A DNA stretch of 22,236 nt from Caulochytrium protostelioides (Eukaryota; Chytridiomycota; Caulochytriomycetes; Caulochytriales; Caulochytriaceae). Made by a program: the position numbers and the translations under genes. Below, one piece after another: positions 373-21,962 of this stretch; position 1 is the stretch's first letter; each line of letters starts with the position of its first letter. Where the stretch lies: positions 1 to 22,236 of the forward strand of contig ML014360.1 in the NCBI GenBank assembly GCA_003615045.1, written 5' to 3'. The notes under the pieces are model-generated. The model saw only the letters and a program-made list of their open reading frames with translations, was not told the origin of the DNA and made no database searches.

Positions 373-445
373 GCCCGGTTAGCTCAATCGGTAGAGCGTA
401 CGACTCTTAATCGTACGGTTGCGGGTTCGACCCCCGCATCGGGCT
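373..445 (+). tRNA. tRNA-Lys(CUU)
   Basis: A complete 73-nt cloverleaf can be drawn. The acceptor stem is 373-379 with 438-444 (one G-U pair). The D stem is GCTC/GAGC (382-385/394-397). The anticodon stem TACGA/TCGTA encloses loop CTCTTAA with anticodon CTT at 406-408. The T stem GCGGG/CCCGC encloses TTCGACC. The discriminator base is 445. No intron and no encoded CCA are seen, as expected for a eukaryotic nuclear tRNA. Anticodon CUU decodes the lysine codon AAG, the codon favoured in a GC-rich genome. Confidence 0.97.
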
Positions 446-6787: not shown

Positions 6788-7312
6788 GGGAGTGGGCCTG
6801 ATTCCAGCAAGGGCAAACTCCGCCGCGACCGTCGGGCCTTCCTCCTAGCGCCCCTTCCAGGGCGCGGAGAACCGGCGGCCCCCGGGACGGGGTCCTCGGA
6901 GGGGCTTAGATATCGCTTTTTCAAAAATTTCCATGTTTCTCAAGCTGCGCTTGACCAGCGTGGGCCAGCCCAAGCGCCTCCGGCCGCAGCCCTGGCGCGG
7001 CGCTCGCTCCGATGGTTCTGCCGAGCCCTCGTTCGGCTGAGAGGTGGGGCATCGCCCTTCATACGGAGCGGTGTTGTCAACACGCCTGCAAAGCCCGCGC
7101 TGCTCCGTTGCCACGTGCGCAAGAAACGGAGAATAAGTGCCCGCCCTCATCCGGTCCTGACCCTTTCTTCGCTTCGCCCACGTGTCACACGCATACGCTT
7201 GAGTCCGTGCGTTTGAGAATCGTGTCGCCTCGCGCATCAGGCGACTCTCCTCGGCCTGGCTCGGCATCGCCCTCTCCCTCCAGCACCGCGAACCGCCGCT
7301 CACCATCGCACC

Positions 7313-8410
7313 ATGAGCGCGCCCGTGTTCCGATGGCTTGCCGGCCCGCGCCGTACCGCTTGGGCGCCGACCGCCAGTCTCGCCGTTCGCTCGTTCGTGC
7401 CGGCCCATCGCGCTAGGGCACGGAGTCTTCAGAGCGCATCGGTGGCAGACGCGCGCCATGACACATCAGCGCCTGCCAACGATATCTCGGCCGAGCTGGA
7501 TGTGGCCGACGCCATGCAGCCTTTGACCCGGCCCACACCACCCGACGCCGCCGCATCCGACGCCGCTGCATCCGACGCCGCCGCATCCGACGCCGCGGCA
7601 TCCGACGCCGCCGCATCCGACGCCGCCGCGACCAACCCCGAGAAGTCATCGTCGCCGCCGATACAGCGAGCGCGCAACTTCTATACGTCTGAGATCTTCA
7701 GGACGGCTCGCCCGCTGACGGTGCCTGCGGTCGAGCATCTCGTGCCCAAGGACGACGCGGTGCTGTCGGCGACGCTCGAGCTGAGCGGGTTCATGCCGGA
7801 CCACCTGGACGTGATGGCCTACGCGATGCGTTACTTTGCTACGACGTTGACGATCCCGACGTCGCCGGTGATCCATCCGAAGAGCGACCTGGAGCGCTGG
7901 TCCGTCGTGCGTGGCCATTTCGTCCACGGCAAGTCGAAGGAGGCCTTTGAGCGGCTGGTGCATAAGCGAGTCGTTCAGTGCTACGACGCCACGCCGGAGG
8001 TCATTGACGCGCTGGTCAAGTATACCGCAAAGCACCTCCCGCCGGGCGTCGATCTGAACATCGAACACTTCACCTCACAGCCGCTGTCTTATGGCCAGGA
8101 GACGCTGGTGCAGCTGCGCGATGCCCTCGCCAAGCGCGTGGCCGTGCTCAAGAAGACCATCAAGCCTGAGACCCGCTCGCCCGTGGGCCACCGTGGTACC
8201 GTTGCGGAGGAAGACCTGTTCGCGAACGAGGTCAAGCTTAAGGCGCCGAATCGCATCGAGATGGGCCGATATGATTACTTCGGTCGCCAGCCCGGATGGA
8301 ACCGCCGCAAGCGCCGCGACTACCCGCAGCTCACGACGCCCCTCCGCGCCGACTTGGTCCGCGAACGCGCCAACCAGATTCTCGCGAAGTGGCGCTCCGA
8401 GAAAAAGTAA
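7313..8410 (+). CDS. RSM10: mitochondrial small-subunit ribosomal protein uS10m
   Basis: A 365-aa intronless ORF. Residues about 155-255 form a ribosomal S10 domain. LERWSVVRGHFVHGKSKEAF followed by RLVHKR and LPPGVDLNIE matches the bacterial and mitochondrial pattern of PTK..RxTVLRSPHVxKKSREQFE and LPAGVDVEI. uS10 sits in the head of the small ribosomal subunit. The N-terminus is rich in Arg, Ala and Ser with almost no acidic residues (MSAPVFRWLAGPRRTAW...), as expected of a mitochondrial presequence. Residues about 78-107 consist of six DAAAS-type repeats, which lie outside the fold. The C-terminal extension after the S10 domain (ending ILAKWRSEKK) is typical of fungal mitochondrial versions. 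The start has a good context (GCACCATGAGC). The gene diverges from RRP12. Confidence 0.9.
   Translation: MSAPVFRWLAGPRRTAWAPTASLAVRSFVPAHRARARSLQSASVADARHDTSAPANDISAELDVADAMQPLTRPTPPDAAASDAAASDAAASDAAASDAAASDAAATNPEKSSSPPIQRARNFYTSEIFRTARPLTVPAVEHLVPKDDAVLSATLELSGFMPDHLDVMAYAMRYFATTLTIPTSPVIHPKSDLERWSVVRGHFVHGKSKEAFERLVHKRVVQCYDATPEVIDALVKYTAKHLPPGVDLNIEHFTSQPLSYGQETLVQLRDALAKRVAVLKKTIKPETRSPVGHRGTVAEEDLFANEVKLKAPNRIEMGRYDYFGRQPGWNRRKRRDYPQLTTPLRADLVRERANQILAKWRSEKK
7544..7633 (+). repeat. 15-bp minisatellite, six copies, coding for DAAAS repeats
   Basis: Six head-to-tail 15-bp units (GACGCCGCCGCATCC consensus) are in frame within the uS10m gene. The units differ only at third positions, except the last, which codes DAAAT. 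The array lies between the presequence and the S10 domain. Confidence 0.95.
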
Positions 8411-8513
8411 ACACGATGTCTTATATTTTTAAATGAATTTATATATTTTTTTTTGACGCACTGCATATACAGGCCCTCCCTTGAGACGACCTAACGCGCA
8501 CGCCATGCCCTCC

Positions 8514-8541
8514 AGGGTGCGCCCCCCCGCAGGGGTGCCCT
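8514..8541. other. GC-rich hairpin just beyond the Fanzor relic 3' end
   Basis: AGGGTGC at 8514-8520 can pair with the complementary TGCCCT end at 8536-8541, and C-runs and G-runs in between extend the stem with one bulge. It lies about 50 bp past the stop codon of the Fanzor relic. An AT-rich stretch (8428-8456) separates it from the uS10m gene. Confidence 0.5.
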
Positions 8542-8588
8542 ACCGAGGCAGTACGCATTTTGGTTCAGTGGCGGATGAGTTTGCCGGC

Positions 8589-9473
8589 CTAGGGCTGCAG
8601 CGGCGCTTGCCGGGGGTTGCGGCACAGCGCCGCGGGTCTGACGGGAAAGGCCAGGCAGCGTCGGATGTTCAACGCAGCCTTAAGATCGCGGTTCACCAAC
8701 TTGCCGTTGGTAGCTTCATACCAGAGCAAGCCACGAATTGTGGTCCCCTGGCGCCGGCGTTGACCGGGTTTCAGGACCACATGCGTCTGGGCATACACCC
8801 GGGCCTTGCAGACTGGGCTGACTGCCGTCGGCGCGGATGAGGGAGCGCCCGCCCGAGACGCGCGACACGTTGGCACGACCGTCAGGTCCCCGGTTTTCAC
8901 CTTGGTCAGGATGTTATTCGTCTCGGCATGCACCTGGGGTTGTCCGGAACTCGCCGACCAGAACGGTGCGGAAGCGCTGAGCGCACGCCTGATACGCCCG
9001 AGCGCTTGGGACGGCGATCTCGCCCTTGCCCCCAGGGGCCAATTGGGAGGCTTCATCAGCGACCACCGCTTCAGCGACCACGGGCTTCGTCTCCGTGGCC
9101 GCCCCCTCGGCGACGCGGTTGAAAAATTAGGCAAACACGCGCTGCTTGTCAACGCAGACGCTGGTGTGCCCAGCGCGGCTTCAGGTACTCGATCCACAGC
9201 GGCTCGCACGCCTTCAGTGACAGCTCTGGGAAGGCCTTGTGCGCCGTGAGCGCCGTGCCCTTCGAGTTAACCTCTGCCAGCTACTGCAGTAGCTTCTTGA
9301 GATGACGCTGCCAAGTCTCCATCTGCCTAAGGTACTGCGATGCCGGCTTCCGCATCATAGCGTTTTCTGGCCAGTGTCCAGCTGTCGAGTAAGCAGCCGG
9401 ATCGATCGATGGCCGTGTAGAACATGTCAGTTCCACTTGGGCCGTTCCGAAGGATGTAGCCCTCGTCCAAGCT
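8589..9473 (-). pseudogene. degenerate Fanzor (eukaryotic TnpB-like RNA-guided nuclease) relic
   Basis: Read on the minus strand, this stretch gives successive fragments of a Fanzor/TnpB RuvC nuclease in shifting frames. The first frame (9473 to about 9339) has a LDEG remnant of RuvC-I (normally DPG) and LARKRYDAEAGI. The second (about 9358-9149) has SQYLRQMETW and LWIEYLKPRWAHQRLR, with an internal TAG at 9283-9281. The third (9150-8914) has DKQRVFA, a TAA at 9129-9127, FFNRV, and VLVGEFRTT of RuvC-II with its Glu. The fourth (about 8925-8589) has TIRGLLWY and VNRDLKAALNIRRC of RuvC-III with its Asp, then a stop. At least three frameshifts and two internal stops make it non-functional. The N-terminal half expected upstream of RuvC-I is not recognisable beyond 9473. 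All three stop codon types interrupt it, so an altered genetic code is not the explanation. Confidence 0.82.
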
Positions 9474-9953
9474 GTCTGCCCAGGGACGCTTGGTCATGCG
9501 GCGACCGGCACGTCGTCGGTAACCCGCTTGCTGCGCGCCCTTAGGTCACCGGCATCTCTTTAGAGACTGGCAGCGCAGTAAAGACAAGATATGGTGCGAA
9601 AATATGGCGCGAGAGCAGCGCCAGGCCCGGTGAGAGTTTGGTGGGCCGGTCCAGGACCCATATTTCCCCCGCGCGTGAGGCTCGTCTCGACGGGCCTCCG
9701 CCCACTGCTTCCTTCACATCCGTCTCCCGGCCCATCCATACATCCCTGCATGCATCCATGCCGTTCGCTATAGACAGCCATAGGTGGCCACACAGCTTTC
9801 TACCCCGCTAACACGATAAAATAACAACCAACTCGTTCAAGCACGTGATTTTCGCATGTCCAGGGCAGGACATCGAAAAGGCTCAGATTGTATCACGTAA
9901 ACTACGTAAGCGTGCCGCTTATGATTGTAACAAGAACACACCGCCCCGGCTAA

Positions 9954-10606: not shown

Positions 10607-11824
10607 TCAGACGTATTCAATGGGATCGTCCGCAAGTCGGAAGACATTGCGCGACGTTTCGAGGGCTTCGGCGTCGAAGGACGGGTAGACGATGTGGCGC
10701 GGGCAGGGCGCCGTGTCGGCCAGCGGCCGCGCCGAGGGCGTGCCATACACGGGCTCCGACGCGCCATTGAAGCGGAGGGCGACCTCGCCGAGCGCGCCGT
10801 CCATGCAGCGCAGCGAGAATGCCAGCGACCCGCCGAAGGCCTCCCGAAGGGCCGTCTCAATCTCGACCCGGAGAAACGTGCCGCCCGGAACGATGCCGGC
10901 CTGCGCCAGCGCGGCGTACACATCGTACTGGTCCGCGAGGCCCAGCGCCGCAGCAAAGTAATTGCTCATCGCCCGGGTACCGTCGGCGCGGGTGCCTTCA
11001 GCGTGGACATGGTCCGTGGGGGCCCCATCGGTATCGATGCCGCCGACGCCGCCGGCGCGGGCAGTGTCAGACGCCGTCTCTGTCAGCGCGGCGGGCAGCC
11101 GTGGACGGTCCGCGAGCCGCAGCAGACATGCTGGGTCCGCAGGCGAGTAGCAGGTGCCGTCTTCGGCCCAGGCGCGGCGCCAGTGGTCGTTCAGGGAGCG
11201 TGTCTCGCTCGGCCAGAGCCGACGGAGTCGCTGCAAGAGCGCTGGGTCGGTGGCCGCGAGGCGCGCCTCGACGTCGTGATAGGCACGGGTCAGATCGCAC
11301 CGGACCATGGGCGCGCCCTCGCAGGAGGCGAGCCAGAGCCCGCGGACCGCCCAGCGCTCGGGGGCGACCGCGTCCGTCACCAGCCGGCTGCACCAGACAT
11401 GGCGGCATGTGGTGCCGATCCAGTGCATAACTAGCGTCAGGTCGCCGAACAGCGGCGCGCAGCACGCGTTCTGCAGCCGCCGGTCCAGCCAGGCGCGGTA
11501 GCCGTGATACGCGGGCGCCAAGTGCAGCGCTTCGTTGGTGCACACCGCAAGCGACATCGACGCCGACGGCGGCGGCGGCGGCGGCGGAGGGCATGAATCG
11601 ACGATGCCAAGGCAGGCGGCCGATGTACACGGCGGCAAGAATGTCGCGTTAGCCGGCGCAGGCGCAGGGTTGCGCGTCCGCGTCAGGGGCGTCAGGGGCG
11701 CCATGGACGGGTCCGCGGCCAGCGCCGGTCCGTAGAGTAAACGGTCGCTCGTCGCATACCGGACAATCAGCAAGGTTGTGATGAAGAGCAGCGACCCGTG
11801 CCAGACGCGGCTTGGGACCAGCAT
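10607..11824 (-). CDS. RNase T2-family protein lacking catalytic residues, signal anchor or signal peptide
   Basis: A 405-aa ORF from the first real ATG; the frame is open further upstream but only from non-ATG codons. Residues about 10-24 (GSLLFITTLLIVRYA) form a hydrophobic signal peptide or anchor. Residues 79-86 are eight prolines. The fold is RNase T2. CCAPLFGDLTLVMHW matches the first core strand of the family. RGLWLASC (161-168) aligns with active-site segment CAS I (HGLWP). RAWAEDGTC (217-225) aligns with CAS II (HEWxKHGTC). YFAAALGLADQYDVY plus ALAQAGIVPGG match the helix before the C-terminal sheet. GALGEVALRF matches the last strands. The catalytic His of CAS I is Arg. The His, Glu, Lys and His of CAS II are Arg, Ala, Glu and Asp. 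Structural cysteines and tryptophans are kept. The frame is intact over more than 400 codons, so this looks like a maintained pseudo-enzyme rather than a decayed gene. A secretory or vacuolar location is inferred. Confidence 0.85.
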   Translation of the reverse strand: MLVPSRVWHGSLLFITTLLIVRYATSDRLLYGPALAADPSMAPLTPLTRTRNPAPAPANATFLPPCTSAACLGIVDSCPPPPPPPPSASMSLAVCTNEALHLAPAYHGYRAWLDRRLQNACCAPLFGDLTLVMHWIGTTCRHVWCSRLVTDAVAPERWAVRGLWLASCEGAPMVRCDLTRAYHDVEARLAATDPALLQRLRRLWPSETRSLNDHWRRAWAEDGTCYSPADPACLLRLADRPRLPAALTETASDTARAGGVGGIDTDGAPTDHVHAEGTRADGTRAMSNYFAAALGLADQYDVYAALAQAGIVPGGTFLRVEIETALREAFGGSLAFSLRCMDGALGEVALRFNGASEPVYGTPSARPLADTAPCPRHIVYPSFDAEALETSRNVFRLADDPIEYV

Positions 11825-12691
11825 GGTGGCCTTGCGGGAAAGGCCGTGGTGTTGGCGTGGTGCGGCGTGGCACGGCCGGCCGCCCTGTGTGCGGCCCTGG
11901 GCGCGACTAGGCTGACCGCAGCTCGTGCGGTAGTGACGGAAGCGGCACCAAAGCGGACAGCGAGCAGCGAGCACAGCGCCAACGAGGCGGCTGGAGGACG
12001 TCTGAGACCAGGAGAGACAGCAACGGCGTCCGCGTCAGGCCGCTCCGGCACCGGCACCTCGTCTCGTCGGGTGTGCATGTTACGCCCCCTCGCGTCGGCT
12101 GTTGCGGCCTCGGCCGCTACGCTGTGTTTGGGATGATCGCCTCGTATCAAAAGCCACGTGCATCCGTCGTTTCGGTAGGTCGTGGGTGGGTGTGGCTTGG
12201 CCGCGTCCGTTGCTTGATGTCCCTGTGCAAGGGCCGGTGTGCTCCCCCCGAGCGGCGTGCGGTGGGCGTTAAAGGCTTCGCTGCGGTTGGCGGTGGCCCC
12301 GACGCGCTTCGATGCTCAAAGGCGCAGGCTGACAGGGTCCAGGGCCATTGGTGTGATCGAAAGCGGTCGTACTCAGATCGACGGCGCGAGACACGGCTCG
12401 GGGGCCAGCTTTCGTGAGTAAGCGCATGGACGGTCATCGACGATCGATGCTGGGGGAGAGACGTCGCTGGACAGACGATACGTGCTTTGATGCTGGGTCA
12501 CATGGAAGGCTGCCGCCAGGATCACCGAGACCGAACCACCGCGCGATCCCCCCTTTTTTCCCAAGAGCACCTACAGCAGGTTCTAACGGCGTCTCCGCAG
12601 CAAACTCCGATCCGATCCGAGCCCGAGCCCGATCACGAACCCCACCTCCCTCGATCTCCCGCAGGCACTCTACGGCACAACGACCGCCGCG
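11825..12691. other. divergent intergenic region, RNase T2-like and LisH-WD40 genes
   Basis: About 870 bp containing the promoters and 5' leaders of both genes. Overlapping open frames on both strands show no domain and reflect high GC. No RNA gene or clear repeat was seen. Confidence 0.5.
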
Positions 12692-21846: not shown

Positions 21847-21962
21847 TGCATCCGCCGGGAATCGAACCCGGGGCTAACACATGCTGCTGTAAGACTCTGA
21901 TGCCGGGAAGACGGTCAGAGCGGCTATGGCAAGCGTTAATTTTACCACTAAACCACGGATGC
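21847..21962 (-). tRNA. tRNA-Gly(GCC) with 45-nt intron
   Basis: The acceptor stem GCATCCG/CGGATGC (21962-21956 with 21854-21848) is perfect. The D arm is GTTT-AGTGGTA-AAAT. The anticodon stem is AACGC/GTGTT with loop TTGCCA|T and anticodon GCC. The variable loop is AGCC. The T arm is CCGGG-TTCGATT-CCCGG, with discriminator A. The mature length is 71 nt, normal for tRNA-Gly. The 45-nt intron (21926-21882) starts one nucleotide after the anticodon, the canonical site for nuclear tRNA introns cut by the splicing endonuclease. It contains a GGC that can pair with the anticodon. Confidence 0.93.

Follow-up and report, generated by a model that had tools for sequence, protein, structure and literature searches.

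What does a run of short, overlapping open frames on the minus strand of a chytrid contig represent, to which protein lineage did it belong, and how did it come to lie there? The window analysed here, a stretch of 22,236 nucleotides that makes up one whole contig (ML014360.1) of Caulochytrium protostelioides, had been interpreted from its letters alone, and this sequence-only reading proposed a fossil Fanzor in frameshifted pieces at positions 8589 to 9473. An open-access literature search retrieved no paper joining Fanzor with Caulochytrium. With a probability of about 90%, we consider this locus to be a 5'-truncated, frameshifted and catalytically dead nuclease gene of the Fanzor1 lineage (TnpB family), and one of many decayed mobile-element copies in this organism.

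The remnant in the window

A protein profile (A2) constructed from 22 relatives, none of them a Caulochytrium row, was searched against the 558 six-frame pieces of at least 20 residues contained in the window. Only four pieces fell below E = 1, and these were collinear with the profile, with a change of frame at every step: 9330-9545 (profile positions 352-400, E 1.7e-4), 9152-9280 (421-463, E 8.9e-12), 8917-9126 (475-532, E 3.4e-18) and 8592-9266 (507-605, E 2.7e-22). The fifth-best piece reached E 4.2, and the best among 12,661 pieces from 20 dinucleotide shuffles of the window reached 0.89. The succession of RuvC-I, RuvC-II and RuvC-III originally read from the sequence is thereby recovered, as are its three frameshifts, which correspond to the three frame changes between the four pieces, and the assertion that such an order exceeds chance. 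Short open frames resembling RuvC motifs by accident would agree with the fact that six window frames compared with Pfam matched no Fanzor or TnpB family, and that the longest of them, of 225 residues, retrieved no Fanzor from PDB and matched there only one unrelated enzyme chain (E 1.5). Nevertheless, the collinear profile matches, the empty shuffles and the recurrence of the same DNA across the genome led us to reject a chance origin, which we regard as vanishingly improbable.

The remnant runs on the minus strand from about 9488 down to the native stop codon TGA at 8565-8567, and is followed by a conserved 3' tail of about 105 nt; thus, the place assigned to it from the sequence was right, while both of its borders had been set too far inward. 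In the RuvC-I remnant (9339..9488), NGPSGTD stands in place of the DPGRxN of the relatives and the catalytic Asp has become Gly (codon 9441-9443); the LDEG formerly taken for this motif lies several residues before the true site. By sequence reading, a TAG stop codon (9281..9283) and a TAA stop codon (9127..9129), each interrupting a frame that matches the family, flank a conserved LWxEYLKPRWAxQRLR segment (9152..9280), after which the RuvC-II remnant (8938..9126) retains, in VLVGEFRTT, the catalytic Glu (codon 8950-8952) attributed to it earlier. The same holds for the catalytic Asp of RuvC-III (codon 8685-8687), contained in VNRDLKAALNI within a remnant that also includes the TNB region (8595..8879) and that is closed by a premature TAG (8589..8591), seven sense codons before the native stop. 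Where at least two internal stops had been counted, there are three. The long frame in this region, given as 8589-9209, actually spans 8592-9266, and the view that only part of it belongs to the gene agrees with the family alignment, which covers 8595-8879 only. Given the loss of the RuvC-I Asp together with the frame changes and stops, the window copy would be unable to cut at present, and its description as a fossil is justified on the same grounds. Past the native stop, the conserved tail (8461..8564, minus strand) is a candidate omega-RNA region, with a stem-loop in better-preserved copies, and is followed by an A-rich 3' terminus with a run of nine A (8436..8460, minus strand), about where similarity between copies stops.

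As for its surroundings, the remnant and the frame of an S10-type ribosomal protein (7217-8410, plus strand) have their 3' ends facing each other, the A-run being some 36 bases from the stop of this frame, within which a tandem repeat (7542-7629; 15-base unit, 5.9 copies) encodes DAAAS repeats. The window also contains a ribonuclease T2 domain frame (10607-12034, minus strand; PF00445, E 1.1e-20), further frames matching RRP12, LIM and WD40 families, a tRNA-Lys (CTT) at 373-445 (plus strand), and an Rfam tRNA match of 116 bases at 21847-21962 (minus strand) that is absent from the ARAGORN output and probably has an intron.

Relatives and the Fanzor1 lineage

Two further profile searches at E ≤ 0.001 retrieved 170 and 73 proteins, of which the best 120 of the 170 and all 73 were used. 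Six short or chimeric sequences (P0015, P0018 and P0034-P0037) were left out before profile A2 was built and the relatives were counted, resulting in 176 relatives of 424-922 aa (median 622); a second profile, A4, comprised 26 relatives. Their sources include metagenomes, the green algae Tetrabaena socialis, Chlamydomonas euryale and Chlamydomonas sp. UWO 241, and this chytrid, the latter with fragments; a more distant green-algal relative, with 25% identity, is found in Haematococcus lacustris. A FastTree phylogeny from which rows of less than 500 aa were omitted (178 rows, 232 columns; root placed on P0190) grouped three Caulochytrium fragments (0.999) with P0010-P0014 (0.854). No relative was found by tblastn with 600 pattern stretches from viral contigs, and PADLOC gave no match for the four proteins submitted.

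The catalytic motifs are strongly conserved in this family. DPG occurs somewhere in 172 of the 176 relatives and is invariant in all 22 of profile A2, where the RuvC-II Glu, directly before [TS][TS], and the RD and N of RuvC-III are likewise invariant (22/22 each). In P0010, the spacing of D370, E535 followed by FRTT, and R577-D578 fits the D-X(125,275)-[TS]-[TS] and RD pattern set out in passages of PMC3627910.

When profile A2 was compared with 177,635 distinct PDB sequences up to E = 10, three matches were obtained, from Parasitella (3.3e-16), Spizellomyces (3.2e-10) and Guillardia (0.058), and all of them are Fanzor1, in agreement with the lineage first proposed. The Spizellomyces alignment extends from profile position 246 to 598, and the Parasitella alignment is strong at 144-452, its C-terminal part (519-599) alone having an E of 0.068. 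Profile A4 matched two chains, the same ones from Parasitella (2.3e-16) and Spizellomyces (6.8e-9), and the Glu that precedes [TS][TS] in the relatives aligns with the Glu of both. The link between the window and Fanzor runs through these relatives, since the window and its sister sequences by themselves find no Fanzor in PDB: sister frame P0001 had no match in PDB, Pfam or NCBIfam, and a profile of seven Caulochytrium fragments (A1) had none in PDB. In Pfam, sister frames P0004 and P0006 had no match, and P0002 matched PF07282 below the cut-off (E 0.013, 16.1 bits) and, in NCBIfam, NF040570 at E 0.077. The single relatives P0010, P0190 and P0191 also retrieved no Fanzor from PDB by phmmer, P0010 matching one unrelated antibody chain (E 0.34). 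The four matches in the window were obtained through the profile of relatives; they are collinear, and this profile had no better match to an unrelated family in PDB.

PF07282 covers Fanzors too. It matches 15 of the 22 relatives (best E 9.6e-5), with P0173 above its cut-off; among precomputed Pfam labels, PF26935 is assigned to many relatives and PF07282 to 8 of those listed. NF040570, the guided TnpB family, matches 11 of the 22 relatives (best 4.1e-6). The matches to both models, mostly weak and at the RuvC-III end, constitute the likeness to TnpB, and those to NF040570 could be taken to indicate a decayed bacterial TnpB, acquired by contamination or direct transfer, rather than a eukaryotic Fanzor. 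However, passages of PMC10711439 give Asp-hydrophobic-Gly for the RuvC-I of TnpB, whereas the family displays DPG and the alternative Glu, an arrangement that the same source regards as characteristic of Fanzors and of the cyanobacterial TnpBs nearest to these. Moreover, the PDB matches of both profiles are restricted to Fanzor1, and the named hosts are this chytrid and green algae; we therefore consider a bacterial origin very unlikely. The Caulochytrium copies form a repeated, dispersed element in a eukaryotic host.

The family nonetheless departs from the 2013 Fanzor motif, which, according to PMC3627910, includes a C4 zinc finger between RuvC-II and RuvC-III; PMC10711439 ascribes this finger to "many" TnpBs and Fanzors. 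Using our own regular expressions, neither pair of the finger was found in 173 of the 175 relatives that could be parsed (1 of the 176 was unparsed); an earlier finger pattern had given neither pair in 121 of 121, with 8 of 129 unparsed. The two remaining relatives retain finger-like Cys/His pairs, P0182 with CxxC followed by a wider Cys pair and P0190 with HxxC and CxxC, which suggests that the finger was lost within the lineage and that both may be possible intermediates. P0190 also displays an N-terminal match to DUF5763. PpFz1 and SpuFz1 resemble the family in the collinear match of the N-terminal and RuvC regions, the Glu before [TS][TS] and the RD of RuvC-III, and PpFz1 also shares DPG in RuvC-I; SpuFz1, however, carries a CCCC finger (PMC10432273, in part), as the elements of Bao and Jurka (2013), found in other hosts, include the C4 finger in their motif (PMC3627910, in part), and the window copy is dead. 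Judged by sequence, and given the absence of the finger in 173 of 175 relatives, the family is a zinc-finger-less clade of the Fanzor1 lineage, and not a textbook Fanzor. Searched against this genome, PF07282 found no match at E ≤ 0.001, probably owing to decay and the absent finger together.

Decayed copies in the Caulochytrium genome

The genome searched comprises 20.9 Mb in 337 contigs. The DNA of the remnant has at least 40 further matches in it, with 73-81% identity (a number limited by the scoring), and at the protein level at least 167 matched stretches were obtained with a sister-copy frame and at least 102 with a relative, with several stretches per locus. Intact relatives elsewhere in the genome, which the sequence-only reading had held likely, did not appear: disregarding introns, no intact copy was found among the at least 102 stretches matched with a relative, the longest covering 367 of 618 residues and containing a stop, and all six listed matches that extend over at least 300 residues are interrupted by one or more stops. 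The relatives without interruptions came exclusively from metagenomes and from organisms other than this chytrid. In an alignment of 39 copies (38 loci plus the window) over 495 columns, the mean pairwise difference was 0.241, and the mean difference to the majority base was 0.148, that of the window being 0.123. From this divergence and the stop-bearing matches, and within the limits of the assembly and of the matches listed, the element looks old and inactive in this chytrid. The mutation spectrum of the copies, with similar per-base rates of G>A and A>G and a transition/transversion ratio of 1.2, has no one-sided excess readable as RIP; for both the spectrum and the divergence counts, loci L027 and L048-L050 were left out.

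Several further observations were made on individual copies. Two genome matches, on contigs C230 and C155, contain the same stretch without differences and appear to be a single locus, situated at contig ends. The annotated gene CXG81DRAFT_23488 (P0018, 554 aa; locus L015, C6:203500-211000) begins with a Fanzor remnant, its opening part coinciding, by eye, with the open frame of the C6 copy, and continues with unrelated sequence; it is probably a gene-prediction chimera. With respect to P0010, the Caulochytrium sister copies (e.g., L009:926-1885) are longer by about 45-50 residues in the interval from RuvC-II to RuvC-III, and this insert contains the segment VYAQTNVVLKPG, similar to the preceding VHAETNEILTKV; their likeness possibly reflects an internal duplication. 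Upstream of the long copy in L051, two stretches within positions 311-558 match sequence in L009 and L018, and correspond to a second repeat family. Lastly, among the best 40 genome matches of the 3' tail, many have, by eye, no Fanzor match upstream among the matches listed, and it is possible that these consist of the tail alone, in the manner of the ghost loci described in PMC10432273.

Ends, 3' tail and mode of spread

The ends of the copies were analysed in 43 sources, corresponding to the window and 42 loci, L026 and L027 sharing one stretch and being cut by contig ends. All 43 reach profile position 591 or beyond, out of 615, whereas their start positions are spread from 7 to 485, of which 1 of 43 lies in positions 1-20 and 14 of 43 precede 352. 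As most sources were picked with a C-terminal query (from 352 on), the constant 3' end is partly a result of selection, which does not apply to the 5' spread before 352. After the coding part, the copies share the conserved tail, and they cease to be similar close to an A-rich border; A-rich 3' termini occur in many copies, and long A tracts are not general. Comparison of the 5' regions of L022 and L051 showed similarity from about the coding start, and further upstream L051 matches other repeats.

By its position, and in line with passages of PMC10711439, the 3' tail is a plausible source of a right-end RNA. In the best copies the tail forms a long stem-loop starting near the stop codon, with fold z-scores of -5.3 (L014), -4.6 (L044), -4.2 (L029) and -4.1 (L032 and L039); the score is -0.64 in the window and above 0 in 12 of 39 copies. 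The mean z-score of the 39 tails was -1.26, versus -0.58 for a coding control (p 0.11) and -0.11 for the downstream flank (p 0.0018). These scores were computed for 39 of the 42 rows of alignment A3, leaving out L027 and L048-L050; L027 was left out of the tail work because its stretch is identical with that of L026. RNAalifold returned no consensus pairs on the tail alignment. In a structure picked from the per-copy folds, and thus biased toward itself, having been chosen from the same rows as tested, 73.5% of cells were paired versus 72.0% in shuffled alignments, a value reached by 6 of 500 shuffles; for the other four measures, the observed value was reached by 17 (covariation score), 23 (cells changed on both sides), 77 (pairs changed on both sides) and 101 (further pair types) of 500 shuffles. 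Sliding the partners of this structure lowered pairing from 73.5% to 36.9-48.0%. The omega-RNA of the Spizellomyces Fanzor derives from the 3' end of its element. The ancestral protein, which is about 617 aa long in the nearest relatives, would most likely have cut double-stranded DNA under the guidance of an omega-RNA, this guide would have come from the 3' tail of the element, and the element itself was probably moved by machinery supplied in trans.

Two modes of spread can be considered for these copies. A constant 3' end combined with variable 5' ends speaks for retroposition, in which a reverse transcriptase supplied in trans would insert copies of the element's RNA, truncated at random from the 5' side; the A-rich termini point in the same direction, and the genome has 19 RVT_1 matches, 15 of them over the cut-off. 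Against this stand the selection of most copies with a C-terminal query, biased toward intact 3' ends, the lack of general long A tracts, the absence of any match to PF14529 (LINE-type endonuclease) in the genome, and the behaviour of fragments in the flanks of the loci: among five further fragments, two extend as far as the C-terminus, two stop short of it and one is truncated where its locus ends, and another fragment, in L039, also extends that far but belongs to the 40 DNA matches already counted. Among the matches listed, some to the N-terminal part lack a counterpart at the C-terminus, whether as a real feature or as an effect of the listing. The test for target-site duplications was also weak (mean score 6.19 versus 5.91, p 0.042; 39 copies with uncertain borders, leaving out L022, L026, L027 and L049). 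Weighing this evidence, we hold retroposition to be possible rather than probable.

Alternatively, the element may have spread as a non-autonomous DNA transposon (Helitron, Mariner, MuDr or unclassified), its 5' scatter being due to deletion or aborted repair. This is favoured by the missing LINE-type endonuclease, the weak duplication test and the mixed flank fragments, and also by precedent, as Bao and Jurka reported Fanzor1 in several DNA transposon superfamilies, according to passages of PMC3627910. Compared by description in that same source, the chytrid copies resemble two of its families: CMe-1A of Cyanidioschyzon, a likewise diverged Fanzor1 family of about 150 copies, and a Mucor family, MCi-2, whose members have almost the same 3' region but differ in the 5' region and lack sharp borders at that end. 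Internal deletions also occur in the chytrid copies; L022, for instance, has no match between profile positions 143 and 263. Compact Fanzor1 elements of the SfAV type, with the Fanzor gene only and about 600 residues, are similar in protein size, by the description given in part of PMC10711439; that description, however, includes terminal inverted repeats and short target-site duplications, and neither is established for the chytrid copies. PF14214 matched neither this genome nor the control genomes, and hence provides no evidence either way. We regard spread as a DNA transposon as an evenly balanced proposition.

A broader proposal would be that a large eukaryotic Fanzor1 clade dispensed with its zinc ribbon, hitherto counted in the common motif, and that its RNA, anchored by the guide-bearing 3' tail, was retrocopied many times in 5'-truncated form in this chytrid; we consider this doubtful, and if true, a programmable nuclease would have travelled as a retroposon. 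For the family as a whole, PF07282 finds nothing in a genome with a large Fanzor fossil record, so surveys that depend on the zinc-ribbon domain or on CxxC patterns can undercount Fanzors. The zinc-finger-less clade has uninterrupted members, about 600 aa long, both among green algae and in metagenomes, and these are candidates for asking whether RNA-guided cutting can do without the finger; the decayed copies of Caulochytrium, with their fixed 3' and scattered 5' ends, make testable how Fanzor1 elements move.
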